Shown one piece after another: positions 13,394-54,643 of a stretch of 64,000 nucleotides of DNA. Positions within the stretch are counted from its first letter, which is position 1. Each line of letters opens with the position of its first letter. Below the pieces are notes generated by a model. The model made no database searches. It saw only the letters and a program-made list of their open reading frames with translations, and had not been told where the DNA came from. A program made the position numbers and the translations under genes. Source of the stretch: Streptococcus oralis (GTDB lineage Bacteria; Bacillota; Bacilli; Lactobacillales; Streptococcaceae); NCBI RefSeq assembly GCF_016028255.1, contig NZ_CP065707.1, forward strand, positions 496,001-560,000, read 5' to 3'.

Positions 13394-14431
13394 ATGAAAG
13401 CATACACAGAGCGTGTATTTGGAAATCATGAGGGTAAGGATGTCTTGGCCTATCGCTTTGAGACTGACAGTGGCTACCAACTAGAAATCATGACCTATGG
13501 TGCGACCATCTTGCGCTATGTCACACCTGACAAGGCTGGAAATTTTGCCAATGTTATCTTGGGCTTTGATGATTTTGATAGCTATGTAGGCAATAGTCCC
13601 AAGCATGGAGCAAGTGTAGGTCCTGTAGCGGGCCGTATTGCAGGTGCGACATTTGAGCTTAATGGCCAGACCTATAATCTTGAAGTCAACAATGCCAGCA
13701 ACTGTAACCACAGTGGTTCAACAGGTTGGGATTCAAGCTTGTTTGAATTGGTAGAGGTGAGCGCCCATGGCTTGACCCTCTACACAGAGCGTACAGATGG
13801 GACAGGAGGATTCCCTGGTAATCTCAAGATATGGATCAGCTATCATTTGGAAGAAACTGGTGCTTACGAAGTCAGCTATAAGGTGACGACAGATCAGGAT
13901 ACGCTTGTCAATCCCACTAATCACAGCTACTTCAACTTGTCTGGTGATTTCACGCAGACAATTGACCGCCATGTCTTCCAACTAAATACGGAGGGCATTT
14001 ACCCAATCGCTCCAGACGGAGTTCCGGCTAAGACTCCAGATGCTACTCGTGATGTAGTGAAACATATCTACAATGGAGCTTTGTTGAAGGACATCTTTGA
14101 AGAGGAAGATGAGCAAATCCAGTTGGTATCTGGTTTGGATCACCCATTTGCCCTTCCTGCCGGTCATGACAATGCTGGTTTCCTTTATGACCAAAACTCA
14201 GGTCGTTTCCTGCTGTTCAAGACAGAGGCCCCTTGCTTTGTGGTCTACACAGCAAACTTTGTGGATGAGAGTGTCATCATCGGAGGCCAGCCAATGGTGC
14301 AACACAATGGTATTGCCCTTGAAGCGCAAGCTTTACCAGATGCCATTCACAGCGACCTCAAAGACCAAGTCATTCTCAAAGCAGGGGAAACTTTCACCAG
14401 CAAAACTCGCTACGAGCTTGTTGTAAAATAA
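13394..14431 (+). CDS. galM: Aldose 1-epimerase (galactose mutarotase)
   Basis: Interconverts alpha and beta anomers of galactose/glucose, feeding beta-galactose released by galactosidases into catabolism. Start chosen at the ATG at 13394 with AAAGGAGA upstream; the longer frame from 13334 has no ribosome site. The 345-aa length is typical. Family motifs include the histidine in NPTNHSYFNLSGD (catalytic acid region) and the glutamate in NGIALEAQALPDA (catalytic base region). It is the last gene of the glycan operon and is followed by a terminator. Confidence 0.93.
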   Translation: MKAYTERVFGNHEGKDVLAYRFETDSGYQLEIMTYGATILRYVTPDKAGNFANVILGFDDFDSYVGNSPKHGASVGPVAGRIAGATFELNGQTYNLEVNNASNCNHSGSTGWDSSLFELVEVSAHGLTLYTERTDGTGGFPGNLKIWISYHLEETGAYEVSYKVTTDQDTLVNPTNHSYFNLSGDFTQTIDRHVFQLNTEGIYPIAPDGVPAKTPDATRDVVKHIYNGALLKDIFEEEDEQIQLVSGLDHPFALPAGHDNAGFLYDQNSGRFLLFKTEAPCFVVYTANFVDESVIIGGQPMVQHNGIALEAQALPDAIHSDLKDQVILKAGETFTSKTRYELVVK

Positions 14432-14509: not shown

Positions 14510-15067
14510 TTATTTTTCTTTTTTCTGTTTCTCGATTCTCTCTAACATTCTGTTTTTACGCTCCTCCAGTTCTTGGATTTGCTTGAGCAAAAGATCTGAA
14601 AAGTCACTATCAAGCTCTTCAGCCTCTCCACTACTATACCAATCTAAGGCGACAATGTGATTATTTTTATCAAAGCAGAAAATCATATCTCCATCACCGA
14701 TGATAGACAGAAAAGGGATATAATCTACAAAGCCTAGTTCATGTAATTCTTTGGTCTTCAGTCGAATGTCTAGAAAATCAGGTATCTCATTTGCAATACC
14801 GTAAACCTTAATACCACGACAGAATGTCCAAAATGGGGCGACATCAAATGCTTTGGCTCTTGGCCACAGTTCCTCCCTAACTTCCATATAGAGTCCGCCT
14901 AGGGGTGACATGGTAAATTCTCTAAAGTCGTCTGGAAGACTGATTTGATACAGTTTTTCAAAATCTTCTATATCCTGTTCGGAGGGTTCATTTCCCATGC
15001 AGGCTACAACTTGGTAGGTTTTAGAATCATAATGATGAAAATAATCATAGACTTTTTCTAGTGACAT
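14510..15067 (-). CDS. SMI1/KNR4 (SUKH) family protein, probable immunity protein
   Basis: 185 aa with a SUKH-like core: an N-terminal helix, EQDIEDFEKLYQISLPDDFREF (the family's LP-x-D/E-F/Y signature) near residue 36-56, then GGLYMEVRE and SIIGDGDMIFCFD. The C-terminus is a charged helix. SUKH proteins are best known as immunity proteins against contact-dependent or secreted toxins, and it stands in a row of similar genes. No toxin gene lies beside it. The target is unknown. Confidence 0.75.
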   Translation of the reverse strand: MSLEKVYDYFHHYDSKTYQVVACMGNEPSEQDIEDFEKLYQISLPDDFREFTMSPLGGLYMEVREELWPRAKAFDVAPFWTFCRGIKVYGIANEIPDFLDIRLKTKELHELGFVDYIPFLSIIGDGDMIFCFDKNNHIVALDWYSSGEAEELDSDFSDLLLKQIQELEERKNRMLERIEKQKKEK

Positions 15068-15079
15068 GGTTACACCTCT

Positions 15080-15802
15080 CTATCCTAGGTAAATATATTC
15101 GACAACTAAATCACAAAGCCGATTATCCTTATCATAGCCAAAGTAGACGGGATAGACTCCGTCTCCAAAACCTGATTGGATCATCGGAATGCTTAGGTCA
15201 GTGTTGGGGATTTTAAAATTAATCCAATCCCCGCCCTCACGTTGATAAAGGGGATTGTCTATGGCATTTTGGGCAAAAACTGCTGCAAAGAAATCATCGT
15301 AGATATTTTTGTCAGGATTTTCTTTATACCAATTGTCTTCAAAATCGCAGTAGGCATTCTTGGTGTCAACGTCCACTATTGTTGCCAGACCTGCGTCAAC
15401 TGCAAATCCAAAATAAGAGTCTTTTTCAACAGTGTCTATATCTTCATCACCAGTCAGTGCTTCATAGTAGATGACTGGCACTTGATCTGTAAATTGGATT
15501 CTCGTTGCTACATACCTGTAGTGATCTTCTTCTAACTTGGCTACTAAGGTTTTTATTCTATATGTTCCTTTGGGAACAGATTGTAAGTAGGGCTTTTCCT
15601 CTCTACGGAGCCAGACCAAAGGATCGCGAACCAGAATTTCTCCGCTAGGGAAAGTCACTTTCCCCATATCCAAAACAAAAATTTCTGCACCCTGTATTTC
15701 TTTCCTATCAAAATAGTCTGCATAATTGATAGACGAAGTGAGCAGGTGTTTTATTTCTTGGTATTTCTGTAACCACTCTTGTGAAGTTTGTATTTTTTCC
15801 AT
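15080..15802 (-). CDS. DUF4241-type protein, immunity-like
   Basis: 240-aa soluble protein. The order FPSGEILVRDPL, VPKGTYRIKTLVA, FGFAVDAGLATIVD, FGDGVYPVYFGYD and a C-terminal VVEYIYLG resembles DUF4241 proteins (recognised from memory). It begins 12 bp upstream of the SUKH gene and is probably co-transcribed with it. Biochemical role is unknown; the company it keeps suggests toxin immunity. Confidence 0.65.
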   Translation of the reverse strand: MEKIQTSQEWLQKYQEIKHLLTSSINYADYFDRKEIQGAEIFVLDMGKVTFPSGEILVRDPLVWLRREEKPYLQSVPKGTYRIKTLVAKLEEDHYRYVATRIQFTDQVPVIYYEALTGDEDIDTVEKDSYFGFAVDAGLATIVDVDTKNAYCDFEDNWYKENPDKNIYDDFFAAVFAQNAIDNPLYQREGGDWINFKIPNTDLSIPMIQSGFGDGVYPVYFGYDKDNRLCDLVVEYIYLG

Positions 15803-41269: not shown

Positions 41270-43342
41270 ATGAAATATGATAATTTTTCAGATTTAATGT
41301 CAAGATTCGATAACTTACATAACAAGATTCCAATAACAGATGAACGTTCGGCTCCTTTAGTTGAATTTTATAAGTATTGGAGCAATTACCTGGAACCAAC
41401 ACCAGCTTATTTAGCGTTTTTATCTAGTTTATGGGGCTCTTTGGCTAAAGGGCTGTATTTTATAACTGCTAGTCTAGAACATGTTTTTAACAATTTATTT
41501 AAGCTTTTTGGACTTTTCGGATATCTGGGGGATCAGAAGACAGTAATTGGTCAATTTTTTTACTGGTTTCAGGTAATTGGAACTTCTCTGTTTGCCTTAA
41601 TACTCGTTGTATCAGCTGTTACAGGAGTTTTTACAAAACCAGTTAAATATAAAAATGTAATCTTAAATTTTTTGATGGTGACCCTAGTATCTTCAGCTTT
41701 ACCGTTGGCTTTAACGACAATATCTACGGCTATTTCTGAAGATGTGCAGAGTGTTCAGAAAGTAGAGAGTGCCTCAGGAGACAATTCAAAGTATTTCTCT
41801 TCTCTAGCTATTCAACCTATGAAAAATAATGTTGTAGATTTGAAAGTTTTAATTGATAAGGATTTTTCAACAGAACTTTTCCCAATGGATGACTATGGAT
41901 TTATTAAACCTATCCAGGAAGGCTCGACTCCTCTTAATAATATTACAGATAGTCCAGATAAACGTGATACCTCTGATTTTGCTTCACGAATTGATTTTAG
42001 TGCCACATTTGGAGCGACTGATACAGTTCTATTAGATGCTCTTGAGACAAAACAAAAAGGATTAAAAGGACTCTTTCTTCATCAATTAAATGCAACTCAA
42101 AATGGAATTTTAACTGTTGATGAACATCGCTTTGTAAAGGGATTAAATGCTTTTGAACCAGTGTATATGCGTTATAAAGTCAATTGGATTGGGATGTTTG
42201 CTCAGTACTTTATTTTGATTATTCTTTTAACGAGTATGGCCATTAAACTCGTAAAATCTATTTTTGATATTCTTATTGAAGCACTTATTTCACCTCTAGT
42301 CGGTTATACTTCACTTTCTAACTCTAAAAAATATAAGGAATTATTAAGAACAATTGGCGGTGCTGGAGCAGGTATCTTCTTTGAGGTTATTATTATGCGT
42401 GTAACGCTTGAGATTTTCCGAGATTTACCAGTTCTCTCTGTCTCAGCTGTGGCGAAGCTTTCTGGAGGATTCTTTGAAGGCCTTAATAGTTGGGAACAAA
42501 TGATAGCGGCCTGTGTAGTTTATGTTGGAGTATTCTTTGCATCAATGCAAGGAGTGGCCATGATTGAACGTTGGCTTGGAGTTTCAACCGGTCATAGTGA
42601 AACAGCTCAACAACTGCTCGGTGCTATGATGATGGGCAATGCCTTTGCGGCTGGAGCAGGTGGTGTCTTTAATGGGGGTATGGCACTTGGTCAATTTGGT
42701 ATGGATATGGCACAAAAAGCTCCAGATGCCTTATCTAAAGGAAGCCAGATCCTAGGGAATAGCCTTGCCAGAACTGGAGGTGGTATTCAAGGTGCTTGGA
42801 ACTCTGTAAAAGACCAGGGCTTGATGAATGCGGCCAAAGGTGGTGTAAGCAATATGGTTGATTTGGCAGAATGGAAAACTTTTGAAGCCATGCAAAATAC
42901 GAAAGGGGCAGTAGGCAACGTTTTAAATAACCTAGATGATAAGGCCGTCTCTGCTCAAAATGCGACCTATAACGCTCTGAAAAATGATGCTGTTCCTGGA
43001 ATTGGTCAGCCTGGCCCAATTGATATTCCTGAACCTCCAATCGATCCAGGAACAACGGATGCACCTATTGTCGATCCAACTTCTTCAGCTGAAGGAATGG
43101 AGTCCCCAATTCAAGATCCAAATTCACCTGCAGAGTCCCCAATTCAAGATCCAAATCCACCTGCAGAGGCACCAGTTTCAGAATCGACACAACCACCAGC
43201 ACAGCCTGATTCTTCTCAACAAAAATTTCAACAGAGCATGAATCAAATGAATTACATGAACCAACAAATGCAACAAGCAGGACAGCGTATGCAGGGGGGA
43301 CGTCATATCACAGGTGCTGAGAGTGAAGAAGATGATAATTAA
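41270..43342 (+). CDS. VirB6/TrbL-like conjugation membrane protein
   Basis: 690 aa. Several TM helices (about 100-125, 130-155, 310-330, 355-385, 405-430), Gly/Ala-rich region with amphipathic stretches (480-560), then a Pro-rich tail (PIQDPN repeats, QPPAQPDSSQQ) and a Met/Gln-rich end. This layout matches VirB6-type inner-membrane channel proteins of Gram-positive conjugative elements. VirB4, VirD4 and relaxase genes are absent, so the module is incomplete. Confidence 0.6.
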   Translation: MKYDNFSDLMSRFDNLHNKIPITDERSAPLVEFYKYWSNYLEPTPAYLAFLSSLWGSLAKGLYFITASLEHVFNNLFKLFGLFGYLGDQKTVIGQFFYWFQVIGTSLFALILVVSAVTGVFTKPVKYKNVILNFLMVTLVSSALPLALTTISTAISEDVQSVQKVESASGDNSKYFSSLAIQPMKNNVVDLKVLIDKDFSTELFPMDDYGFIKPIQEGSTPLNNITDSPDKRDTSDFASRIDFSATFGATDTVLLDALETKQKGLKGLFLHQLNATQNGILTVDEHRFVKGLNAFEPVYMRYKVNWIGMFAQYFILIILLTSMAIKLVKSIFDILIEALISPLVGYTSLSNSKKYKELLRTIGGAGAGIFFEVIIMRVTLEIFRDLPVLSVSAVAKLSGGFFEGLNSWEQMIAACVVYVGVFFASMQGVAMIERWLGVSTGHSETAQQLLGAMMMGNAFAAGAGGVFNGGMALGQFGMDMAQKAPDALSKGSQILGNSLARTGGGIQGAWNSVKDQGLMNAAKGGVSNMVDLAEWKTFEAMQNTKGAVGNVLNNLDDKAVSAQNATYNALKNDAVPGIGQPGPIDIPEPPIDPGTTDAPIVDPTSSAEGMESPIQDPNSPAESPIQDPNPPAEAPVSESTQPPAQPDSSQQKFQQSMNQMNYMNQQMQQAGQRMQGGRHITGAESEEDDN
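43100..43165 (+). repeat. 33-bp tandem repeat, two copies, in the VirB6-like gene
   Basis: Two units (43100-43132, 43133-43165) differ at one visible base and encode ESPIQDPNSPA / ESPIQDPNPPA. A slippage-prone Pro-rich linker. Confidence 0.85.
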
Positions 43343-43511: not shown

Positions 43512-43529
43512 TAAAGGAGGTTGTGGCAG

Positions 43530-44840
43530 GTGCTAGATGAACGTTTATTCAAGGAAAATTTATTAGAGAGTAGCGGTAAAGATTTTTTAAATTGGATAAA
43601 ATCTTATGATGATTCACAAGTGCCTATCATGAAGCGAAGAGGTTATACCTGTATTCATTCAATGGAGCGAACAGTAGCTTTTACATTTGGGGAATTTACT
43701 TTTAGGAGAAGGCGTTGGAAAAAAGGAGATAAGTGGATAATTCCTGTTGATGATAAATTGGGTTTAGAGAGAAATACTAGGTATTCCAGAGAATTTATGT
43801 ACCAAATAGCTAAATTATCTACTATGATGTCTTATGGAAAAGTGATACAAGTGATTGAAATGACTTATAATATTGTAATTACAAAACCTACAGTCGTTAA
43901 GGCAGTTAAACTATGTGCTGATTTGTTGAGGAAACAGGAAAGTTACCAGTCTTATCAAGAATCAAACGAAATAAAAGAGAAAGTAGATGTCATCTACGTA
44001 GAGGGAGATGGTGTAATGGTAAAATCAAGTGATAAAAATCTAAATAATCGCCGTATTGATCTTTCTCATTTTGTCGTACATACAGGAAGTAAAAAGATAG
44101 GGAGTAAGAGATTTGAACTGCAAAACAAAAAGGAATTTATTTCACCCAAAAATCGTTTAGTGAGAGAGCAGGTAATAGACTATTTAACTAATACTTTCGA
44201 GATTAGTAAAGAAACTATTTTTGTCACTAATTCAGATGGAGGGCATGGCTATACACCGTATGTCTTTAAAGAAATGGCAAAGATACTCAGAGTAAGTCGC
44301 CATGAGCATTTTTGGGACGAATATCATCTTAATCATAGTTTAAAGAGCTTTTTCAATTCTTATCCATCAGAGCTTTTAGAGAAAGCATTTCAAGCGATTC
44401 AAAGGCATGATAAAAGTTTATTACGTAGTGTTTTAGATACGACAGAGGCTTTAATAGAGACTCAGGAAGAGATAGAACAGTTCTATAAATTTAAACGGCG
44501 CCTTCTTCAAAATTTTCAATATACCAAGCCTGCAGAATTGAGAGGCCTTTCACATTCTGGAATAGGTATAATGGAAAGTCAGCATCGTAAAATTACTTAC
44601 CGTATGAAGAGAGGTGGAAAATATTGGACAGAAAAAGGAGCAGAAGCAATGAGTAAAATGATACTCTTGGCTGATAAAGACGAACTTCGGGAATTATTAT
44701 TGGGGTCTTGGATTGTTGACTATGATCAAATTCAAGAGCAAAGAGGGCTATCTGGTGGGGAGGTTAGACGCTTAGAGTCTAAAAAAACAAGTCAATATAT
44801 GCCAACTGGGAAAATTACCTGGAAGAAATTTAAACCCTGA
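43530..44840 (+). mobile_element. ISLre2-family transposase (UPF0236)
   Basis: 436 aa, GTG start at 43530 with AAAGGAGG 9 nt upstream (a TTG at 43521 is too close). Features of the family: RGYTCIHSMERTVAFTFGEFTFRRRRW, VIYVEGDGVMVKS, FVTNSDGGHGYTPYVF, HFWDEYHLNHSLK and the C-terminal MESQHRKITYRMKRGGKYWT. The gene is intact. I could not find terminal inverted repeats or a target duplication, so the IS ends are not assigned. Confidence 0.85.
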
Positions 44841-45320: not shown

Positions 45321-45932
45321 ATGTCACGTTATACAGGACCATCTTGGAAACAAGCTCGTCGCCTTGGCCTTTCACTTACAGGTACAGGTAAAGAATTGGC
45401 ACGTCGTAACTACGTACCAGGTCAACACGGACCAAACAACCGTTCTAAATTGTCAGAATACGGTTTGCAATTGGCTGAAAAACAAAAACTTCGTTTCACT
45501 TACGGTGTAGGTGAAAAACAATTCCGTAACTTGTTCGTACAAGCTACAAAAATCAAAGGCGGAATCCTAGGTTTCAACTTCATGCTTCTTTTGGAACGTC
45601 GTTTGGATAACGTTGTTTACCGTCTTGGTCTTGCGACTACTCGTCGTCAAGCTCGTCAATTCGTAAACCACGGTCACATCCTTGTTGACGGAAAACGCGT
45701 TGATATCCCATCATACCGCGTAACTCCAGGTCAAGTGATCTCAGTTCGTGAAAAATCATTGAAAGTTCCAGCAATCCTTGAAGCTGTTGAAGCAACTCTT
45801 GGACGTCCAGCATTCGTATCATTCGACGCTGAAAAATTGGAAGGTTCATTGACTCGCTTGCCAGAACGTGACGAAATCAACCCAGAAATCAACGAAGCAC
45901 TTGTCGTTGAATTCTACAACAAAATGCTTTAA
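45321..45932 (+). CDS. rpsD: 30S ribosomal protein S4
   Basis: 203 aa, the primary 16S rRNA-binding protein of the small-subunit body. Starts [27 protein letters not shown]4 RNA-binding domain includes [34 protein letters not shown]. Codon use is strongly biased as expected for a ribosomal gene. Monocistronic, own leader and terminator. Confidence 0.98.
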
Positions 45933-45953
45933 TTTTAAGAAATATCTTACAGA

Positions 45954-45977
45954 AAGCCTACAACAGTGGGCTTTTTG
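45954..45977 (+). terminator. Terminator after rpsD
   Basis: aaagcc/ggcttt stem with T5, 22 bp past the stop. Confidence 0.75.
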
Positions 45978-46020
45978 CTTTGTCTTAAAACGTTGATTTC
46001 TGGGTTTGCTTAGATATTTG

Positions 46021-46561
46021 CTAGATTGATTTCATTGCTGCTTCAAAGAATGAGACGGCTTTTTTTGCATTCTCTTTTGAGAGGTGGCTATATATATCCA
46101 TGGTCATGCTGATTTGCGAGTGACCTAGGCGGTGCTGAAGCTCCTTGTAAGGTATGCCAGAGTTAAGCAGTAAACTAGCGTGGGTATGACGGAAACCGTG
46201 AAAGCCAATGTTAGGAACGCTAGCACGTTTGAAGTGGGTTCTTAACCTGGTTTGTAAGGTTCGATTATTAGGGTACTCATGTATGAAGTCAGAAAAGACC
46301 ACCGTTTCAGTACGTCCAAGTTGCCAAGCCTCTTTTACTTGTCTACGTTTGTACTGTTTCAGCATGCTAACAGTTGCTTGATCTATATCTATATCTCGAT
46401 AACTAGACTTTGATTTTGGGCTATTGATTTCTTGCTTATAGTTTAGAGTCTTTGTGACGTGGATAACTGCATTATCTAAGTTTATATCAGACCAGGATAG
46501 GGCTAAAGCTTCATTGATACGATAATCGACTTCTATATACCAAAAATACCTATCGAGTAAC
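46021..46561 (-). pseudogene. Tyrosine integrase, C-terminal catalytic fragment
   Basis: The longest ATG-started frame is 114 aa (46021-46365), but the same frame is open upstream to about 46561, giving about 180 aa of integrase catalytic domain. It holds the first Arg region (YRINEALALSW), HGFRHTHASLLL (His-x-x-Arg), RLGHSQ and the nucleophile in MDIYSHLS. The N-terminal arm- and core-binding domains are missing and replaced by AT-rich DNA, so this is a remnant of an integrated element next to rpsD. Confidence 0.85.
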
Positions 46562-46609
46562 TATCAAGTCAGCGCGAATCAAATACTTTCGCTTCTTTCT
46601 TATGGTAAG

Positions 46610-46638
46610 TTGAATTAATAAAATAATTATGATATTCT
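46610..46638 (+). promoter_or_regulatory. Candidate promoter of the AAA+ cluster
   Basis: TTGAAT (46610-46615), 17 bp, TATTCT (46633-46638), about 100 bp before the first gene. The rest of 46562-46741 is AT-rich filler with a weak tagaaaatt/aattttttcta hairpin. Confidence 0.5.
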
Positions 46639-46741
46639 TTTTCTATAAGGAAAAAATTAAAATGATTATAAGATAGTTTATTTAGAAAATTAGTCAAAAT
46701 TTTTTCTAATTAATTTGGAAATCATTAACAAGGGGGATATT

Positions 46742-48463
46742 ATGGCTGAAAGAATAATACATCAAGCTGATCTTCGTGCTATCGAGAATAATTTGCGCTC
46801 TATCCATGAAGGATTACGAACAATTGATGCTAGAGTTGATGTAGCAAACGAAAATCTTCAAATCGTGTACGATGAAATTGGTAGTTTAGCACAAGAATTT
46901 CATGAATTTGTGAATATCCAACAAAAAGCTAATAGATTAGGACAAGCTGAAACTCGACTGGTAAAAATACGTCAGGAAATTGAGAAGAAATACGGACATT
47001 ATGATATTGTTCGTCGTACTACCACAGGGATTTTACAAGCTGATGATTTAGGAATTGTCAAAAAAGAAACAATCAGCACTGCAACAGAAGAACTAATGAT
47101 ATCAACTCCAGGCTACTGGCTTGCTCCATGCTTGGTTGCATTAGCAGCATGGATAAATAATCAACCCGAGTTAGCTGAAAAAGCAGTCAAGGAAGGGCTT
47201 AAACGAAACGATGAAAAAACCTCCCTTTTCTTTGCCTTAATTTGTAGAAGAGCTAACAGAAAGAACGCATGCCTTAAGTGGACTCAACGTTATCTAGCTA
47301 ATCAAGATGAAGAAAATCTTGATAGAAATTCTATAATTATCTTAGATGCTTTTGCGAGCGGCCTTTTAGGAGCCGATACAGAAGGAGTCATATCACGTCA
47401 GATGAATGAGTGGCTCAGTCGACTTGAAGATAAACCAGGTTTTACTGAACGACAAACAGAACAATGGTCCGAAGCGATTAATCTGAAAAGAACTAAATTA
47501 GACGAAAATTTATATCCTAATTTGAGGAAATATAGTAGTAGTTGGCCTGTTCTTGAGGATATCTTAGAAGGAGCTTATCTTCATGAACAAATATTAAACT
47601 ATCTAACTGATATTTTTGAGAAAAAAGGGTCTACAGAAAGCGTCAAAGAACAATTAGATGATATTTTAGACACACTTGTGACTGATTTTGATAACGAGGA
47701 ACTAGCTCTTCGAAAACAAGAAAAATTCGAGCAGTTTGTGGTTGACTTTGGAGGAGATGACAACCGTGCTCATCAAAACATGGATATTGAGGTGACTGCA
47801 TTTGAAACCCATAAAGACTTCACCCAGTTGCTTACCGATGCAGCAATGAAACCCGAATCTTCTCACTCAAGTATATCAACCCAAAAATTTGCATTGGCTC
47901 TTTCTCGTGATTGGGTAACAAACGCTTATAATGACGTTACTGCAAAAAATCGCATGAAGATTCCTTACGAAATTGAAATTAATGTGGATACTTTTAATGA
48001 TAAATCAACAGATGGCCAAAACGAAAACGAGTTGATTGAAAAATTCAATTCTCAGATTGACTCTGAAAAAGAACAAACTTTGTCAAACTACTTCCCAAGT
48101 TTATTTGATAAATTCCTTTTGTATGGTGGTATAGCTATCGGAGTAATCGGTTTAATGATGATTTTTGGGAATATTTTCTTAGGTTTAATAGCTATTATAG
48201 CAGGGATTGTTATGGTTCTTAAACATAAATCTAATATTGAAAACATTGAAACGAATCGCAAGAAAATTGAAGAACAATACGAGAATAAAAGAGTAAATGG
48301 TGAACAAATTATAAGAGCTACTCTGGCTGAAATTGTAGACTTTAGAATTGAATTCGCAGAGAAAGATGCTGAAAGCACTAAAGTTCTTGATTTCCTCGAA
48401 CAAATAAGACCTGAACAATATGTAAACAAGTTGGCATCATCTAATAGAAAGATTAAAATTTGA
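46742..48463 (+). CDS. Coiled-coil, two-TM protein of the AAA+ cluster
   Basis: 573 aa from the ATG at 46742 (AAGGGGGA upstream; an earlier in-frame start at 46715 lacks one). Residues 1-90 are helical and coiled-coil-like; 115-290 is helical and could be TPR-like (YWLAPCLVALAAWINNQPELAEKAVKEGLKR). Two TM helices lie at about 457-493 (GGIAIGVIGLMMIFGNIFL and a following Ile-rich stretch), then a coiled coil to the end. No family recognised. It would place the system at the membrane. Followed 13 bp later by a small gene with GGAGGT. Confidence 0.7.
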   Translation: MAERIIHQADLRAIENNLRSIHEGLRTIDARVDVANENLQIVYDEIGSLAQEFHEFVNIQQKANRLGQAETRLVKIRQEIEKKYGHYDIVRRTTTGILQADDLGIVKKETISTATEELMISTPGYWLAPCLVALAAWINNQPELAEKAVKEGLKRNDEKTSLFFALICRRANRKNACLKWTQRYLANQDEENLDRNSIIILDAFASGLLGADTEGVISRQMNEWLSRLEDKPGFTERQTEQWSEAINLKRTKLDENLYPNLRKYSSSWPVLEDILEGAYLHEQILNYLTDIFEKKGSTESVKEQLDDILDTLVTDFDNEELALRKQEKFEQFVVDFGGDDNRAHQNMDIEVTAFETHKDFTQLLTDAAMKPESSHSSISTQKFALALSRDWVTNAYNDVTAKNRMKIPYEIEINVDTFNDKSTDGQNENELIEKFNSQIDSEKEQTLSNYFPSLFDKFLLYGGIAIGVIGLMMIFGNIFLGLIAIIAGIVMVLKHKSNIENIETNRKKIEEQYENKRVNGEQIIRATLAEIVDFRIEFAEKDAESTKVLDFLEQIRPEQYVNKLASSNRKIKI

Positions 48464-48476
48464 GGAGGTAATTGAC

Positions 48477-48653
48477 ATGGATGAAAAATATAAAGGCGAT
48501 AGTAAGCTATCATCTAATAACACCACTCCATTTAAGAGCATTAATACTGAAGAAGATATCACTGAAGAACCTATGAGCGTGTTTGCTGAGGGACTCCCTT
48601 CATGGGATATTGTGCCCCCACAATTGCTAGTCAGAAGGAAACGGCAAAAATAA
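48477..48653 (+). CDS. 58-aa protein with a C-terminal WDIVPP...RRKR motif
   Basis: Short gene with a GAGGAGGT ribosome site 9 nt before the ATG, stop overlapping the next start (TAATG). The N-terminus is polar and acidic (TEEDITEEP). The C-terminus reads GLPSWDIVPPQLLVRRKRQK, which looks like a conserved docking peptide rather than random sequence. I recall similar W-D-x-x-P-P...R-R ends in small proteins beside AAA+ conflict-system genes, but cannot verify this. Overlap with neighbours and the ribosome site argue strongly that it is real. Confidence 0.75.
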   Translation: MDEKYKGDSKLSSNNTTPFKSINTEEDITEEPMSVFAEGLPSWDIVPPQLLVRRKRQK

Positions 48654-49117
48654 TGAATAAACCACAAACATATGCAGAATGGGTAAACGTCTTAACTGTT
48701 TTTAAAAACAAAGATGATGATGAAACAGTTTTAAAAATGATGAAATCTGGAACTATCGAATGGCAATACGGTGTGGCAGAACGTTTCTCTACAAAGTTAA
48801 TTGACGCTGTTAATTACCGTATGAATGTAGCTTCAGATAAGTTTCAAAATGATTTACTAAAATCCCAAGGATACGAGGGAGCTATTATTCAAGCAATTCT
48901 TTCTTTGAGAAAAGAAATGACGTTCTTAGCTGAAGCAATCAATCTTCCTGTAATTCCGGATAAAGAGCGACAACACTACCTAAATCTCGTTATAGAACAA
49001 GCTAATAGTATGCAAAAATCTTTAGAAGAATCTGCAAAACAGGACCGAAGCGGGAAAATGTCAAGTATTATTAGAAATCATAAAATTAATTCTTTTTTAA
49101 ATAAAGGTGAACAGTAA
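48653..49117 (+). CDS. Uncharacterised 154-aa protein of the AAA+ cluster
   Basis: The start at 48653 overlaps the preceding stop by one base; a longer frame from 48602 would run through the small gene. All-helical, polar, no signal or TM. WVNVLTVFKNKDDDETVLKMMKSGTIEWQYGVAERF near the N-terminus may be a family core. The stop abuts the ATPase start, so all four genes appear translationally coupled. No function recognised. Confidence 0.75.
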   Translation: MNKPQTYAEWVNVLTVFKNKDDDETVLKMMKSGTIEWQYGVAERFSTKLIDAVNYRMNVASDKFQNDLLKSQGYEGAIIQAILSLRKEMTFLAEAINLPVIPDKERQHYLNLVIEQANSMQKSLEESAKQDRSGKMSSIIRNHKINSFLNKGEQ

Positions 49118-50695
49118 ATGAGCAATATAGTAAAAAGCAAAGAACTTCTTACGAGATATTCACTTGCAAGAATTCCTTTTATTGCTATCAATACCATTGA
49201 GCCAAGTAGAACATTAGATATGTTAAAGGAAATATCTGAAGAATTACAACTTCCGTTCAACGTACATACTCTCACCAAAGGTGTGTATGATCTTAGTTCT
49301 GGTAAGAATGTTAACGATGATAAATCTGTTTATGGTGCAATAGATTACATGACGGACCAAATGCAAAAGAAACAATACCAAACTATTGTACTGACAGAAG
49401 TTCCGGATCTTAGTAATGAAAATAGCGATTCTAAACAAGTCTTAGCACTGGTCAATCTAGCCAATGAAACTGGAGGCGTTGTAATAGTTTTTACCAATAC
49501 CCCTATTTGGAATCAACTTCAACGGCAAGGTATGACAGTAAAAATAGATTTACCTAACGAAGAAGAAATGTACTCAATAATTCAAGAGTACATTGACGAC
49601 TATAGAAACGATATCCAGATTGAATGGGACAACTCCGATATTCGAGAAGCTGCAGCAGCTCTCAATGGGGTAACTAGAATTGAGGCGGAGAACGTTATCG
49701 CTGCTTTGATTGCAAATAAGTGCATAAGAAAATCTGATTTAGATGAGATAAGATTTGCAAAAGATCGCCTATTCTCTGATATCTCTGGTCTAGAAAAAAT
49801 CGTTGTAGATGATTCTGTAAAGGATGTCGGAGGACTTGAAGGATTAAGGAAGTGGCTTGATGAAAAGAAAGAATTGCTAACTCCCGAAAAGAAAGATATG
49901 TTACGTGAGAAAGGATTGCAGCCACCTAGAGGAATACTCCTAGTAGGTGTCCCTGGATGCGGAAAATCTTTATCTGCTAAATCAATTTCCGCTAACTGGA
50001 AACTCCCATTATATCGTTTAGATTTTGCAACGGTTCAAGGAAGTTATGTAGGTCAGTCTGAACAGCAACTCAAAGATGCTCTAACTACCGCTGAGAATGT
50101 ATCTCCATGTATTTTATGGATTGATGAAATAGAAAAAGGACTATCAGGAGCTACTGGAGGCGCTAATGATGGCGGTGTATCTACTCGTATGGTTGGTCAA
50201 TTCTTATTCTGGATGCAAGAATGCAAAAAACAAGTTTTTGTAGTTGCAACAGCTAATGATGTATCTATGCTTCCATCAGAACTTCTCCGTCGAGGAAGAT
50301 TTGATGAGTTATTCTTTGTTGATCTACCTACTGCAGATGAGCGTAAAGAAATACTTGCTTTGTATTTTAAAAAATACTTAAGTCTAGAATTTGAAGGAGA
50401 TTTTTCTGATAATATCATTCAAATAAGTGATGGTTTCACTGGTGCGGACTTAGAATCGACAGTTAGAGATTTAGCTTACCGAGCTATCGCTAATAACAAT
50501 TTTATTCTCAATGAAGAGAATATCATGAATGCTTTCAATAATGTAGTCCCACTCTCTCAAACTAGCCCAGAAAAAATTGAGGCTATTAGAGATTGGGGGA
50601 AAGAAAGAGCTGTTCCTGCATCTGGAAAACCAATCGGTGGAGAGGGACTTGTTCATAAACAAAGTGGACTTAAAACAAGAAAAGTACTTGTTTAA
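49118..50695 (+). CDS. Ycf46-like AAA+ ATPase
   Basis: 525 aa. The N-terminal 210 residues match the inactive nucleotide-binding-like half of Ycf46 proteins ([41 protein letters not shown]). A helical linker ([19 protein letters not shown]) leads into a classical AAA module: Walker A GVPGCGKS (277-284), Walker [11 protein letters not shown] with D336/E337, sensor-1 Asn380 in ATANDV and Arg fingers in LLRRGRFD (about 390-395). All catalytic residues are present. It is the probable motor of the cluster, remodelling a target protein or complex. Confidence 0.85.
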
Positions 50696-50710
50696 TAAGT
50701 TCATTATTTG

Positions 50711-50750
50711 GACACGGTAACTGTAATCTCAGTTTCGTGTCCATTTTTAT
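50711..50750 (+). terminator. Terminator after the AAA+ ATPase
   Basis: ggacacg/cgtgtcc outer arms with inner aactg/cagtt, then attttta. It suggests a main four-gene transcript; the gene at 50843 may have its own promoter or rely on read-through. Confidence 0.75.
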
Positions 50751-50842
50751 AATTCCTTAAATGAAGATCTATTCTAAGAGTACCATTAAAAGGAATCTTA
50801 AACTGCAAAATATAACTTATAACACAATTAGGAGAAAAATAG

Positions 50843-51325
50843 ATGCCTAAACCAATGTTAAATCCATACCAATCCCAAAAACAAACACAAGCAAGCCATA
50901 TCATGACTTCTAACTTAAAACAACCACAGATAGATAAATTGAGTTTAGATAGGCTTCTAAGAAAATCACGGTCTAAAGAATATATGGATACTATTCATCA
51001 ACTAGATGCAGGAGGACATGTTCATAATAAAAAGGAAGTAAATGAAATTATTAATACAATTAAGTCAGAATTCCCAGATGTGGATATTAATGGAATTCTC
51101 CTAGGTTTTGTAGCAAAATGTTATTTAGGGGCACCTTATGAAGCGCACACCCTAGACTTAGTTGGAGAAATCATTGAGCATTATAAACGAGGAGAGACAT
51201 TACCTGGTGGGCTCGATAAAGCCAAAAGCATTGCTTTACATGGAGGATATGATTTTATCGAAGTTTATACAGATTGTTGTCGAGCAATTAGCTCAAATGG
51301 TTCCGTATCAGTTATAAAAGATTAA
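50843..51325 (+). CDS. Uncharacterised 160-aa protein downstream of the AAA+ ATPase
   Basis: TAGGAGA precedes the ATG. N-terminal 40 residues are polar and Gln/Pro-rich; the rest is helical with VNEIINTIKSEFPDVDINGILLGFVAKCYLGAPYEAHTLDL and GGYDFIEVYTDCCRAI. No family recognised. It is the last plus-strand gene before the AbiF region and is tentatively counted in the same system. Confidence 0.65.
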   Translation: MPKPMLNPYQSQKQTQASHIMTSNLKQPQIDKLSLDRLLRKSRSKEYMDTIHQLDAGGHVHNKKEVNEIINTIKSEFPDVDINGILLGFVAKCYLGAPYEAHTLDLVGEIIEHYKRGETLPGGLDKAKSIALHGGYDFIEVYTDCCRAISSNGSVSVIKD

Positions 51326-51536
51326 TTATGTATAGAACAGTAACATATGGCATACAGAGAATTTCATAAATAATTGGTAATTAACCTAAAAGGATACTAT
51401 TAGGTAACAGGAAAAATTCATCTCGATGTTAAAACGACTACTGTATTATCTTTGTAATATAGTAAAATTATCAGGAATCGCTTGGAATAATTAATTTGTT
51501 TTTCTCTATATAATAAGAATTAGTGGCATGAAAGGA

Positions 51537-51665
51537 TAGCTATATAGTAGGACACAAAATATCTATTACCAACCAACGCGCTACTTAGCTAGTGGGGGGA
51601 CATTCGGCGGTTTCGCCTATTCTCTTTTATAACTAAGCCCATAGAAATAAATCTAAGGTTTTTTT
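51537..51665 (+). ncRNA. Structured intergenic element, possible AbiF-associated RNA
   Basis: The 500-bp gap between the cluster and abiF has no ORF but is structured. tagcta-tat-agtag (51537-51550) pairs with ctact-tagcta (51581-51591), enclosing an unpaired accaaccaacgcg stretch. ggcg-gttt-cgcc (51607-51618) is a stable tetraloop hairpin. A T8 run (51659-51666) could end a plus-strand RNA, and a TATAAT lies at 51509-51514 upstream without a good -35. AbiF-family genes are known to have an adjacent structured RNA. Strand and limits are uncertain. Confidence 0.5.
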
Positions 51666-51702
51666 GTGCACTTATATTGTATGCTCAAGATTTTAAAAAT
51701 AC

Positions 51703-51737
51703 AAAAAAATGACTTCTGAAATAAATTCACAAGTCAT
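51703..51737 (-). terminator. Terminator of the AbiF gene
   Basis: On the minus strand atgacttgtgaa/ttcagaagtcat (one mismatch) around tttat is followed by T7. A second inverted repeat, agtatag/ctatact, lies between it and the stop codon. Confidence 0.85.
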
Positions 51738-51826
51738 CTAGTATAGTCTCTAATAATCTATACTGCAATCGATAAGAGAATTATATCACTTTATCTCAGT
51801 TTTTGTCAAGTAGAATAAATAAAAAG

Positions 51827-52789
51827 TCACACATAATTATTAATACTATTTATTTTATGATATATATTCGTTCCAAGGATTCTATTAAATTCGCTCCTTG
51901 GAATTTCATTATTTAAATTATCTACAATCTGTTTAAAATCTCTGATTAATCTTCTTAATTCTGTTTTTGAATAACCAAATCCTTTTAAGTACATAACTAA
52001 AAGCATAAAATAATCTACAATTGAATTAAACATTATATTTTGAATTCTATATCTTAAGTTTATATCATTTAATAGCGTTCGATTAATGTTACGTTTCTTA
52101 AAACGAGTATCAAAAATAATATGATTATGTGCGATCGCATTTCTCAATTCGTTTAAAATAAATATATGATTTGTCAGATGACTTGCATTGGTATCCATAG
52201 CATCATAGATTCCAAGTATATTAAGTACATTTTTTCGGTAATCTCTATGCATTTGCTCAACGAAATCGCCAAGTTTCCCAAATGATAAAATTTCAAATAC
52301 TATCCACAAAGGGATCTGATCTCCCGAATTAATTTTATTAGTGACCATTTTATTTTTATTATAGTTCATATGAATACTCGTATGAACATTTTTTTGAAGA
52401 TTCAAACGTTTTTTGAGCATATCCGTTCTCTGATTAGAAGCAAAATGCATACAGTCGGTCAATTTGTTAATATATATGTCTTCGAATATTGGATCACTAT
52501 TACTTACCAGTTCATCTAAAATATAATTTTTAATATGTGTTTCACAAGAGACTAAAGGCGAGAATAATAAATCTTTTAAGGCTGTGTCAAAGTTATAAAT
52601 AGCTACAATTTCATCAAAGTTACTAAAGTTGAATAAATTTTGCCTAGATTTATAAAAACGATATCCTTTATAGCCATGGTAATAACCCATTCTAAGTAAA
52701 TATTTTTTATGTTTAGAACCATATATAGTAATTCCATGGTTATTTCTTATATGCCTCATTAAACTATTGGTTGATTGACCGTTCACCAT
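51827..52789 (-). CDS. AbiD/AbiF-type abortive-infection protein (Abi_2, HEPN)
   Basis: 320 aa. Abi_2 features: YLLRMGYYHGYKGYRFY (about 30-46), FDEIVAIYNFDTALKDLLFSPL and IPLWIVFEILSFGKL. The HEPN ribonuclease motif R-x4-H is RNAIAH (R216-H221) in ILNELRNAIAHNH. Proteins of this family cleave RNA and stop phage growth, and some are held in check by a neighbouring structured RNA. No TM segments. AT-rich relative to the flanking ribosomal genes, consistent with transfer. GGAG lies 9-10 nt before the start. Confidence 0.88.
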   Translation of the reverse strand: MVNGQSTNSLMRHIRNNHGITIYGSKHKKYLLRMGYYHGYKGYRFYKSRQNLFNFSNFDEIVAIYNFDTALKDLLFSPLVSCETHIKNYILDELVSNSDPIFEDIYINKLTDCMHFASNQRTDMLKKRLNLQKNVHTSIHMNYNKNKMVTNKINSGDQIPLWIVFEILSFGKLGDFVEQMHRDYRKNVLNILGIYDAMDTNASHLTNHIFILNELRNAIAHNHIIFDTRFKKRNINRTLLNDINLRYRIQNIMFNSIVDYFMLLVMYLKGFGYSKTELRRLIRDFKQIVDNLNNEIPRSEFNRILGTNIYHKINSINNYV

Positions 52790-52843
52790 TTAAAATTACT
52801 CCATTCCTTTAACTTTGCTTTCGATAAAATTAATTTCATTATA

Positions 52844-52887
52844 ATAAAACACCCCAAGTTAGGTTTTTCTGTCTAACTTTTGAGGTG
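52844..52887 (-). terminator. Terminator of rpmF-rpmG
   Basis: On the minus strand cacctcaaaagttag and ctaacttggggtg pair with one small bulge around a 7-9-nt loop, then gttttatt. The stem sequence resembles ends of IS3-type elements that recur in mitis-group genomes, so it may be a co-opted remnant. Confidence 0.65.
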
Positions 52888-52933
52888 CAGTTCAAATCAG
52901 CGTTTTTCTTATGTATTGATTCGTATTGAATGC

Positions 52934-53083
52934 TTACTTAACTTCTGTAAACACAACGTGTTTGCGAAGTTTTGGTGAGTATTTCTTCAATTGAAGACGG
53001 TCTGGAGTGTTACGTTTGTTTTTAGAAGTAAGGTACAAGCGTTCACCAGATTCTTTGTGTTCAAGTGTAATATTTACGCGCAT
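52934..53083 (-). CDS. rpmG: 50S ribosomal protein L33
   Basis: 49 aa: starts [20 protein letters not shown] and ends in HVVFTEVK. No zinc-binding CxxC pairs, so it is a C-minus L33 paralogue. GGGAGA ribosome site. It lies 15 bp downstream of rpmF in one transcript. Its 3' end faces the accessory island; rpmG ends are known integration sites for streptococcal elements. Confidence 0.95.
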
Positions 53084-53098
53084 GGTATCTCCCTTCTA

Positions 53099-53281
53099 TT
53101 ATTCAGCTGATGCAGCCTTAGCGATTTTACGTCCTTTGTAGTATCCTTTAAGTGATACGCGGTGAGAACGTGAGTAATCTCCAGTAGTTTCGTCAAAGTT
53201 TACAGATGGAGCTGTTACTTTGTAGTGTGTACGACGTTTGTTTTTCTTCGCTTTTGAAGTGCGACGTGCAGGTACTGCCAT
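53099..53281 (-). CDS. rpmF: 50S ribosomal protein L32
   Basis: 60 aa: [20 protein letters not shown] at the N-terminus and a basic C-terminus; this form also lacks the zinc cysteines. AAAGGAG before the ATG. The promoter on the minus strand is TTTACT-17-TATCCT around 53335-53365. Confidence 0.96.
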
Positions 53282-53392
53282 TTTGATTTCTCCTTTAGGT
53301 ATTTAAATTCGATTCAATCTAGTGATTTTCATCAACCATACTAGGATAACACATTTTTTTTGTAAAGTAAAGTTACTTGACAAAAAAAGATG

Positions 53393-53428
53393 AAAAAATT
53401 CTCCTGTCCGATCTAGCAGACAGGAGAA
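53393..53428 (-). terminator. Terminator of the RHH/SPFH operon
   Basis: On the minus strand ttctcctgtc and gacaggagaa form perfect 10-bp arms followed by T6. Confidence 0.9.
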
Positions 53429-53432
53429 GGTG

Positions 53433-53633
53433 TTAAATATCAATCTCAAATGGTTCGTCAATGGTTTCCGATACGTATTTTCCGTCTTTCTTCCGTTGCT
53501 TGACACACTCTGTAAGGAGATATTCGATTTGCCCATTGACTGAACGAAAGTCGTCTTCTGCCCATGATGCGAGTGCAGCATATAACTTATTCGAGAGTCG
53601 AAGGGGGATTTGCTTTTTTTTAGCTTCTGCCAT
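53433..53633 (-). CDS. Arc-type ribbon-helix-helix DNA-binding protein
   Basis: 66 aa. [20 protein letters not shown] is a beta strand plus helix of the RHH fold, and [17 protein letters not shown] is the second helix. Acts as a dimeric repressor or partner protein. It is placed 2 bp after the SPFH gene, so they are one operon; it could repress that operon through the palindrome at 54664. Confidence 0.75.
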
Positions 53634-53635
53634 TT

Positions 53636-54643
53636 CTAATAAAGGCTTCCTGTATTGACAATTGGTTGTGCATCATGATTGCCACAGAGAACGACTAAGA
53701 GATTTGAAACCATGGCAGCTTTTCGTTCTTCGTCAAGCTCTACCAATTCTCCTTCATTGAGACGTTCTAGTGCCATTTCAACCATTCCTACAGCGCCGTC
53801 TACAATCATCTTACGTGCATCGATAATAGCAGATGCTTGTTGACGTTGAAGCATGACGGCAGCAATTTCTGGTGCATAAGCTAGGTAAGTAATACGTGCT
53901 TCAAGGATTTCCAAGCCAGCATCTTCAACACGACTTTGAATTTCTTCACGAATACGGTTAGCTACAATTTCGCTAGAGCCACGGAGACTTCCTTCATCTG
54001 CTTGTCCATCCCCTGTAGTATCTACATTAGGAGACACATCGTAAGGATAGATGCGGACAATATTACGAAGGGCGCTATCACATTGCAATGAAAGATATTC
54101 TTTGTAGTTATCAACGTTGAAGACTGCCTTAGAGGTATCGACTACACGCCAAGTAACGGCAATTCCGATTTCCACAGGATTTCCTAGACAATCATTGATT
54201 TTTTGACGAGAATTGCTCAAGGTCATAACCTTGAGGGAAATCTGTTTCTTGCCAATTTCAAGATTTACATCATTGCCATTTGATGATTTCATCCCTGAAA
54301 AAGGAGATTTCGTGCTAACGTCCCCACTTTGTCCAAGTCGAGTGTGATTTGCAGGGTTAACTGCTACGCTGAAGGGATTGACAAAGTAAAAACCAGGTTC
54401 TTTGATGGTACCTGTATAGTTACCAAAGAGTGTCAGAACCAGAGCTTCCTGAGGTTTGACAACTTTTAAACCAGCATGAGCTAGTGCTGTAATTATGCTT
54501 AGTACAAGTCCGATAATAATTCCAAAAACATTTTCCGAATCAGCACCCATTATAAATATAAAGATACCAAGTACGAGTGTCAACTCAATGAGAATCAATG
54601 CGAATACACCATTTGGTTTTGAATTGATTAGTTTTTCAGTCAT
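53636..54643 (-). CDS. SPFH/Band 7 domain membrane protein
   Basis: 335 aa. An N-terminal hydrophobic region (two segments about 12-34 and 36-58) precedes a Band 7 domain ([31 protein letters not shown] onward) with the [37 protein letters not shown] helix. Such proteins form oligomeric scaffolds in membrane microdomains. AGGAGGT ribosome site. In operon with the RHH gene. Confidence 0.87.

Follow-up and report, generated by a model that had tools for sequence, protein, structure and literature searches.

In the Iet defence system, the partner of the ATPase IetA is the subtilase IetS. Kaur et al. 2020 (PMC7159879) describe FtsH ternary conflict systems (MoxR-vWA subsystem 3), in which a classical-clade AAA+ protein, inactive in its N-terminal AAA half and active in the second, stands together with alpha-helical proteins exclusive to these systems. 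A PSP survey (PMC11237479) reports Vps4-like ATPases whose partner is a TPR/6TM protein, as well as a protein with two AAA copies of which the N-terminal one is inactive. Here we describe a set of five genes, A to E, at positions 46742 to 51325 of a 64,000-nucleotide stretch of Streptococcus oralis DNA (NZ_CP065707.1, positions 496,001 to 560,000), the whole of which is called the window below. A to E form a recurrent conserved unit that is found in at least four phyla and is clustered far beyond chance. Of the five core proteins, four have no meaningful match to a family in Pfam, NCBIfam or PADLOC, yet their relatives cross phyla. The company that the set keeps across distant bacteria, and its toxin-like neighbours in some Clostridia, make it look like an undescribed microbial-conflict machine. 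Our tentative reading, to which we give somewhat less than an even chance, is that A to E are a membrane-tethered, horizontally mobile AAA+ machine that handles client proteins in conflicts.

Like the FtsH ternary conflict systems, A to E place an AAA+ protein beside system-specific alpha-helical proteins. Unlike them, A to E have no vWA match (Pfam, E<=1) and no MoxR, the AAA models being matched by D only; what recurs here in their place is a scaffold, a linker protein of the zinc-ribbon type, and E. The ATPase core of IetA resembles that of D (PADLOC, 2e-34), but D reaches 91 bits against the NCBIfam IetA model (NF042959), for which the cut-off is 510, and no subtilase match was found in A to E with Pfam. 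PspA and Snf7 gave no Pfam match in A to E at E<=1, and likewise none was seen for band-7. The likeness of D to the Ycf46/SpoVK-type ATPases, including phage and plasmid copies, lies in phrog_8638, which is matched nearly full length (8e-106 across residues 9-502); the D copies at 51-74% identity in Fusobacterium, Comamonas and Komagataeibacter are accompanied by A, B, C and E, and beside those at 34-36% in the Geminocystis and Treponema stretches none of the four was found. Every known system tested misses at least one defining feature, which sets A to E apart as new, with the exception of the polymorphic-toxin label; this label fits the HerA-linked genes described below, but not the A-E core. 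No description of the set was recognised in full-text searches of the openly licensed PMC literature, and an earlier description is possible.

All five genes are on the + strand and lie where the original prediction had placed them. Gene A (46742 to 48463) encodes 573 amino acids (aa) counted from an ATG, in an open reading frame (ORF) that opens at TTG 46715; gene B (48477 to 48653) encodes 58 aa; gene C (48653 to 49117) encodes 154 aa from ATG 48653, its ORF opening at 48602; gene D (49118 to 50695) encodes the AAA+ ATPase of 525 aa; and gene E (50843 to 51325) encodes 160 aa. The predicted junctions were also confirmed: A and B are separated by 13 bp, B and C share one base (TAATG), and the gap between C and D is zero. 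D and E are spaced by 147 bp, and between them lies a hairpin with a T run on the + strand (50709 to 50748), which is terminator-like by fold computation (-21.9 kcal/mol, z -5.45, with 0/200 shuffles equally stable); it was not called by a consensus terminator scanner that covers loops of 3-8 only. Among A to E, the curated Pfam cut-off is passed by D alone (AAA). For A, B, C and E, none of Pfam, PADLOC, NCBIfam and PHROGs offered a convincing match, and the sole match of these four to PADLOC 2.0.0 at E<=1 was Cas5 to A (E 0.017).

A tblastn search with D detected the module in the S. oralis satellite-phage record Javan368 and lower-identity copies in three further records, Fusobacterium vincentii, Comamonas antarctica and Komagataeibacter nataicola (D identity 74%, 54% and 51%, respectively), in each of which A to E were found by BLAST. 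In the Geminocystis and Treponema stretches, where D is 34-36% identical, A, B, C and E were not found; the distant Treponema D relative sits amid VgrG/baseplate genes. When genome contigs were scanned with an alignment of A, 94 relatives came up, and the best 80 of them were retained as species-level loci. With iterated profiles, all five families were detected in 74 of the 80 loci; any match on the + strand was counted for each family, so this number includes loci in which one gene is split in pieces (L039, L054, L067, L073 and L089 among them). Five of the six incomplete loci stop at a contig end, and at L044 A stands by itself with 10 kb of sequence beyond. The gene order is ABCDE in 43 loci and EABCD in 31, and the genes are spaced by 40 bp or less in 67/72 (A-B), 70/72 (B-C) and 63/71 (C-D) loci. 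The hosts are chiefly Clostridia metagenome-assembled genomes (MAGs), and they also include Streptococcus, Paenibacillus, a Bifidobacterium and many Proteobacteria; the nearest named copies of the window module are in S. oralis and S. infantis. A scan of viral contigs with A gave one relative (L094), which carries all five genes. Relatives are also numerous in the protein database, with 3029 relatives of A among 7998 scored candidates and 1921 of E among 7841. The co-occurrence in other genomes on which the original prediction depended was seen in these 74 loci, with A alone at one locus; we found neither a failure of the genes to co-occur nor an ATPase that is always solitary in housekeeping contexts.

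Several of the proteins share a terminal peptide of the form R/K-x-hydrophobic-hydrophobic. Motif counts cover the 77 loci with both A and E selected, and shuffled termini and 953 flanking ORFs served as controls. D ends in R-x-[VL]-[LI] (its C-terminal tail in the window is TRKVLV), and the strict motif is present in 44/44 D tails of ABCDE loci and in 28/32 of EABCD loci. In the EABCD loci it also occurs in the C tail (28/33, usually as RR-x-I-L), the E head (24/33), the A tail (15/33) and the B head (5/33). The control rates were 18/953 for C-termini and 34/953 for N-termini, and shuffled termini were likewise far lower. In the ABCDE loci the strict motif was seen in C tails at 0/43, in B heads at 0/44 and in A tails at 3/44, against a shuffled mean of 5.6; a frequent reading of the A tail there is RRI[KR], and A of the window terminates in SNRKIKI. 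Start codons were chosen by rule, which trimmed the E head in ABCDE loci (2/44 by the strict motif), and the E head was therefore rechecked with a looser pattern that allows MPRPIL-type heads; E was then positive at 71/77 loci, with a control rate that is higher too, at 102/953. Such an enrichment at protein ends suggests that the peptide may be a docking peptide.

Modelling presents A as a helical scaffold, TPR-like in part, that carries a hydrophobic hairpin. The structure model (predicted local distance difference test score, pLDDT, 82) is almost wholly helical; it starts with long helices that include a coiled coil, helical repeats begin at about residue 85, a beta hairpin lies at 411-422 and a long final helix forms the C-terminus. 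Two neighbouring hydrophobic segments (454-472 and 474-492) are helices in the model, and the best library match of A, phrog_33640 (E 5e-4), is confined to this hydrophobic stretch. A is probably membrane-anchored: the model and the hydrophobic segments speak for the tether in the 573-aa "membrane-tethered sensor" of the original prediction, in which the sensing part was a supposition. B is mostly linker with a conserved end, GLPSWDIVPPQLLVRR, in which P, W, P and R are invariant across 27 aligned sequences. Its relatives span 57-338 aa, and many Clostridia forms open with an N-terminal CxxC...CxxC that is zinc-ribbon-like. B is also the weakest-matching family outside Streptococcus (BLAST E 9e-8 to 0.008). 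For C, Pfam at cut-off gives no family, and a profile search against PDB gives annexin matches that are weak and partial; long C proteins occur at loci L080 and L081.

D belongs to a known ATPase family. Its PF00004 match (3e-29) is limited to residues 273-402, with no Pfam match in the N-terminal half, and the Walker A, Walker B and RRGRFDE stretches of its active module are invariant in 7/7 aligned members. D-like copies of about 30% identity were found in phages and conjugative plasmids. We take the Ycf46 name for D as an assumption, on the strength of the earlier prediction and one database source label. E is predicted to have a low-confidence head, starting from MPKPMLNP, followed by an alpha+beta domain with no clear known fold. 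There are 14 invariant columns among 69 E sequences, the start Met among them. An apparent E fusion of 627 aa was seen at L088, and its extension may be a chance open frame.

The best functional clue is the form of the module with HerA and toxin-like genes. In seven Clostridia loci (L024, L025, L028, L034, L035, L036 and L048) an 886-892-aa HerA/DUF87 ATPase lies directly before A, and the distance from its end to the longest A frame is -22 to +3 bp. These seven ATPases are 61-81% identical to a reference. HerA is preceded by a zinc-ribbon protein of about 300 aa with one or two hydrophobic segments, and this protein, which is found in the HerA loci and at L030, carries the peptide R-[KER]-[IV]-L-[LIV] in 8/8 cases. 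The L030 genome has a distant HerA only; E of this locus is followed, at 6758-10156, by the gene for a 1132-aa protein that combines two AAA modules with an M41 peptidase domain. At L042 a 147-aa frame before A clusters with HerA, and its genome has no HerA match at 1e-60.

A toxin-like protein is encoded in the D-E interval at L024, L025, L034, L035 and L036, and after D at L048. Another contig of the L048 genome, L119, has a toxin-like gene, a small gene and E in this order and appears to be the continuation of L048 across its contig break; L118, another contig of the L028 genome, carries an apparent orphan toxin pair. The toxin-like proteins have F/Y-[DENSQ]-[DEN]-C repeats within a mostly acidic head. 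The repeats beat all 500 shuffles in six of seven proteins, and the seventh, that of L119, starts inside its contig and has none in that stretch. A pre-toxin region of about 80 residues is common to six of the seven proteins, L035 being the exception. The C-terminus of the L024 protein is a papain-fold glutamine deamidase domain (Gln_amidase, Pfam 4e-15), HExxH is present in the proteins of L025, L034 and L036, and the end of the L035 protein is HNH-like by eye, with no Pfam match. A SUKH gene (2e-9) adjoins the L035 toxin-like gene and a 244-aa family adjoins the related toxins of L036 and L118; the small genes beside the toxin-like genes of L024, L025, L034 and L036 gave no convincing Pfam match.

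The HerA-linked proteins have the common N-terminal region and varied C-terminal domains by which polymorphic toxins are recognised. The HerA loci resemble the polymorphic toxin systems that use FtsK/HerA motors, such as type VII secretion systems (T7SS; PMC3482391), in their common pre-toxin region and varied C-termini, and further in the SUKH immunity-type gene, the HerA/FtsK-superfamily ATPase and the occurrence in Firmicutes. Unlike T7SS, the HerA loci have no WXG/LXG match (Pfam, in the six toxin-like proteins scanned, from L024, L025, L034, L035, L036 and L119), their toxin-like proteins have an acidic head with F-[DE]-D-C repeats, and a DUF87-type HerA is coupled to A-E. We searched 33 genomes, all carrying A or A-E. 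A close HerA (E=0) is present in 7 of the 33; of these 7, 6 have the pre-toxin domain, which none of the 26 others has, and two of the domain matches (L119 and L118) lay on contigs apart from the module; the L035 genome has a toxin-like gene with an FDDC-type head and without the pre-toxin domain. The association gives a Fisher p of 6e-6, or 2e-7 when L035 is counted, for genomes that are not independent. Six more of the 33 genomes have a more distant HerA and no pre-toxin domain, and polymorphic-toxin-like genes were seen in the seven close-HerA genomes only.

A to E are accessory and mobile. D was found in 6/284 genus genomes at E<=1e-60 and in 2/398 phylum genomes at E<=1e-120, the window's own genome being included in both counts. 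In a midpoint-rooted tree of D (79 tips, D pieces below 450 aa excluded), the EABCD loci form a single clade (31/31, support 1.0), and L018, a Lachnospiraceae MAG, is the partner of the streptococcal copies (support 0.957), L017 following next (support 0.408); both the clade and the pairing fit horizontal transfer. The window module is located on a variable island between rpsD and rpmF, where it adjoins a remnant of a phage-type integrase and an Abi_2 gene. The remnant (46021 to 46365, - strand) is C-terminal, adjoins rpsD and matches PF00589 (2e-15, profile positions 81-171 of 172). Pfam bore out the predicted neighbours S4 (rpsD), L32 (rpmF) and the C-terminal integrase piece, and it also placed the predicted AbiF neighbour in the Abi_2 family; the AbiF name itself did not hold, as PADLOC calls AbiD. 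Among six relatives whose short loci were compared, one (L124) has both flanks, about 1 kb apart vs about 7 kb in the window. The GC content is 0.353 in the module vs 0.412 elsewhere in the window, and 18/119 window stretches are still lower. The flanks of the S. infantis copy (L049) fail to align with the rpsD site of the window. No exact direct repeats of 12 bases or more were found between window positions 45861-46100 and 51301-53700. A stretch of about 60 bases (52891-52951) has three similar copies in L049, two before the module and one after it. The Abi_2 gene is present at L014 and the corresponding stretch is unaligned at L015, so the gene is not a fixed part of the module. L015 has an HXXEE-family gene (14917-15435) in place of the Abi_2 gene of the window and L014.

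The Javan368 record (L008) aligns from 8844 to 14257 with window positions 45918-51325 at 97%, the integrase remnant included, and over 205 bp the DNA of the remnant is 71% identical to that of the Javan368 integrase gene. The idea that the module is cargo of the Javan368 satellite is weakened by the record's own intact integrase, which lies at the opposite end; this position suggests a tandem of an intact satellite followed by an older island. The record probably runs past the intact satellite into this neighbouring older island, which holds A-E and the integrase remnant.

For the neighbour scans, 119 of 136 listed ORFs were used; nine loci were dropped (four streptococcal, four annotated records and L092). 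With PADLOC at E<=1e-10, the 25 of 57 families listed are dominated by ATPases of the HerA/mad8 type (as many as 8 ORFs), the others being single mREase_IV, mad6, PD-T4-6 and IetA-type matches. The defence-island setting claimed by the original prediction was not borne out by these neighbours, and the defence-island context of A-E is weak. With Pfam at 1e-6, the 25 of 103 families listed include zinc ribbons (13), DUF87 (7), MFS (4), YARHG (4), and NADase_transloc, SH3_3, M48, GntR and glycosyltransferase (2 each), the rest being mostly single; no phage-tail structural genes are among those listed. One protein cluster occurs at nine loci (L021, L024, L027, L028, L037, L053, L054, L055 and L060), many of its members near the module; the four that were scanned have a zinc ribbon plus NADase_transloc (two), a weak lectin match or YARHG.

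In the client-handling machine that we tentatively prefer, A would be the membrane scaffold, D the motor, and B, C and E adaptors. The end peptides on D and E (and on C in EABCD loci) would dock on a common hub, for which the TPR-like repeats of A are a candidate, and the D motor may extract, unfold or load clients at the inner membrane face. In the seven Clostridia genomes, the core behind the HerA-type ATPase and the zinc-ribbon membrane protein with a similar peptide would handle toxins, and the toxin-like genes there are mostly accompanied by small, putatively immunity-like genes; the streptococcal copy would be the core only, on an island. A wider reading, possible though doubtful, makes A to E the core of a new class of membrane machines with a Ycf46-type motor that recognises the R/K-x-hydrophobic-hydrophobic peptide on its clients; together with HerA it would deliver toxins in Clostridia, and the core-only island and plasmid forms would serve other effectors. 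It is improbable, in our estimate, that HerA, the membrane protein of about 300 aa and the toxins are a separate delivery system that just happens to be located with A-E in a few Clostridia. The close HerA does track the toxin-like genes (6 or 7/7 vs 0/26), and most A-E loci have neither. Yet HerA ends almost exactly where the longest A frame begins in all seven loci, toxin-like genes stand within the D-E interval in five, E follows the toxin-like gene and the small gene in L119, and the protein of about 300 aa carries a D-like peptide in every copy.

Anti-phage or anti-satellite defence, in which the scaffold senses infection and the AAA+ motor hits a phage or host target, is in our judgement unlikely. 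The sporadic distribution, the island with its integrase remnant and Abi_2 gene, the likeness of D to IetA across the ATPase core and the presence of the module at the end of a satellite-phage record are all consistent with it. However, PADLOC matches among the nearest neighbours are few beyond the HerA-type ATPases (in the families listed), A, B, C and E lack a convincing PADLOC match, the Abi_2 gene is not conserved alongside the module, and the toxin and immunity-like pairs of the HerA form suit intercellular competition better than infection sensing. From the candidate conflict system of the original prediction, the recurrent mobile set and the AAA+ ATPase with small partners have stood, and defence is at most a candidate role. 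It also seems quite unlikely that A to E are an accessory envelope-maintenance machine that would remodel membrane complexes under stress in the manner of PspA/Snf7-AAA+ or Vps4. Such a role might be suggested by the neighbouring hydrophobic segments and coiled coils of A, by the zinc-ribbon proteins that recur nearby, some with YARHG, SH3_3 or NADase_transloc domains, and by the Vps4-like and two-AAA proteins of the PSP survey. The module is rare and not core, however, none of A to E matches PspA, Snf7 or band-7, and the HerA form contains toxin-like genes. If the client-handling machine is real, its peptide signal, scaffold and motor are each open to deletion tests, and the streptococcal copy, which is small and lies in a culturable commensal, would be the easiest test case for the core. 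Toxin delivery by the HerA form, if real, would be an additional route of this kind in Firmicutes.

Other genes of the window lie outside the island. A UPF0236 gene (43521-44840, Pfam 3e-24), of what we take to be a transposase-like family, is located shortly before rpsD. A 690-aa ORF at 41270-43342, hydrophobic in several stretches and Pro-rich at its end, by eye resembles a transfer gene of integrative elements. Just beyond the island, a Band-7 (SPFH) gene is found at 53636-54643, accompanied by a small RHH-type gene.

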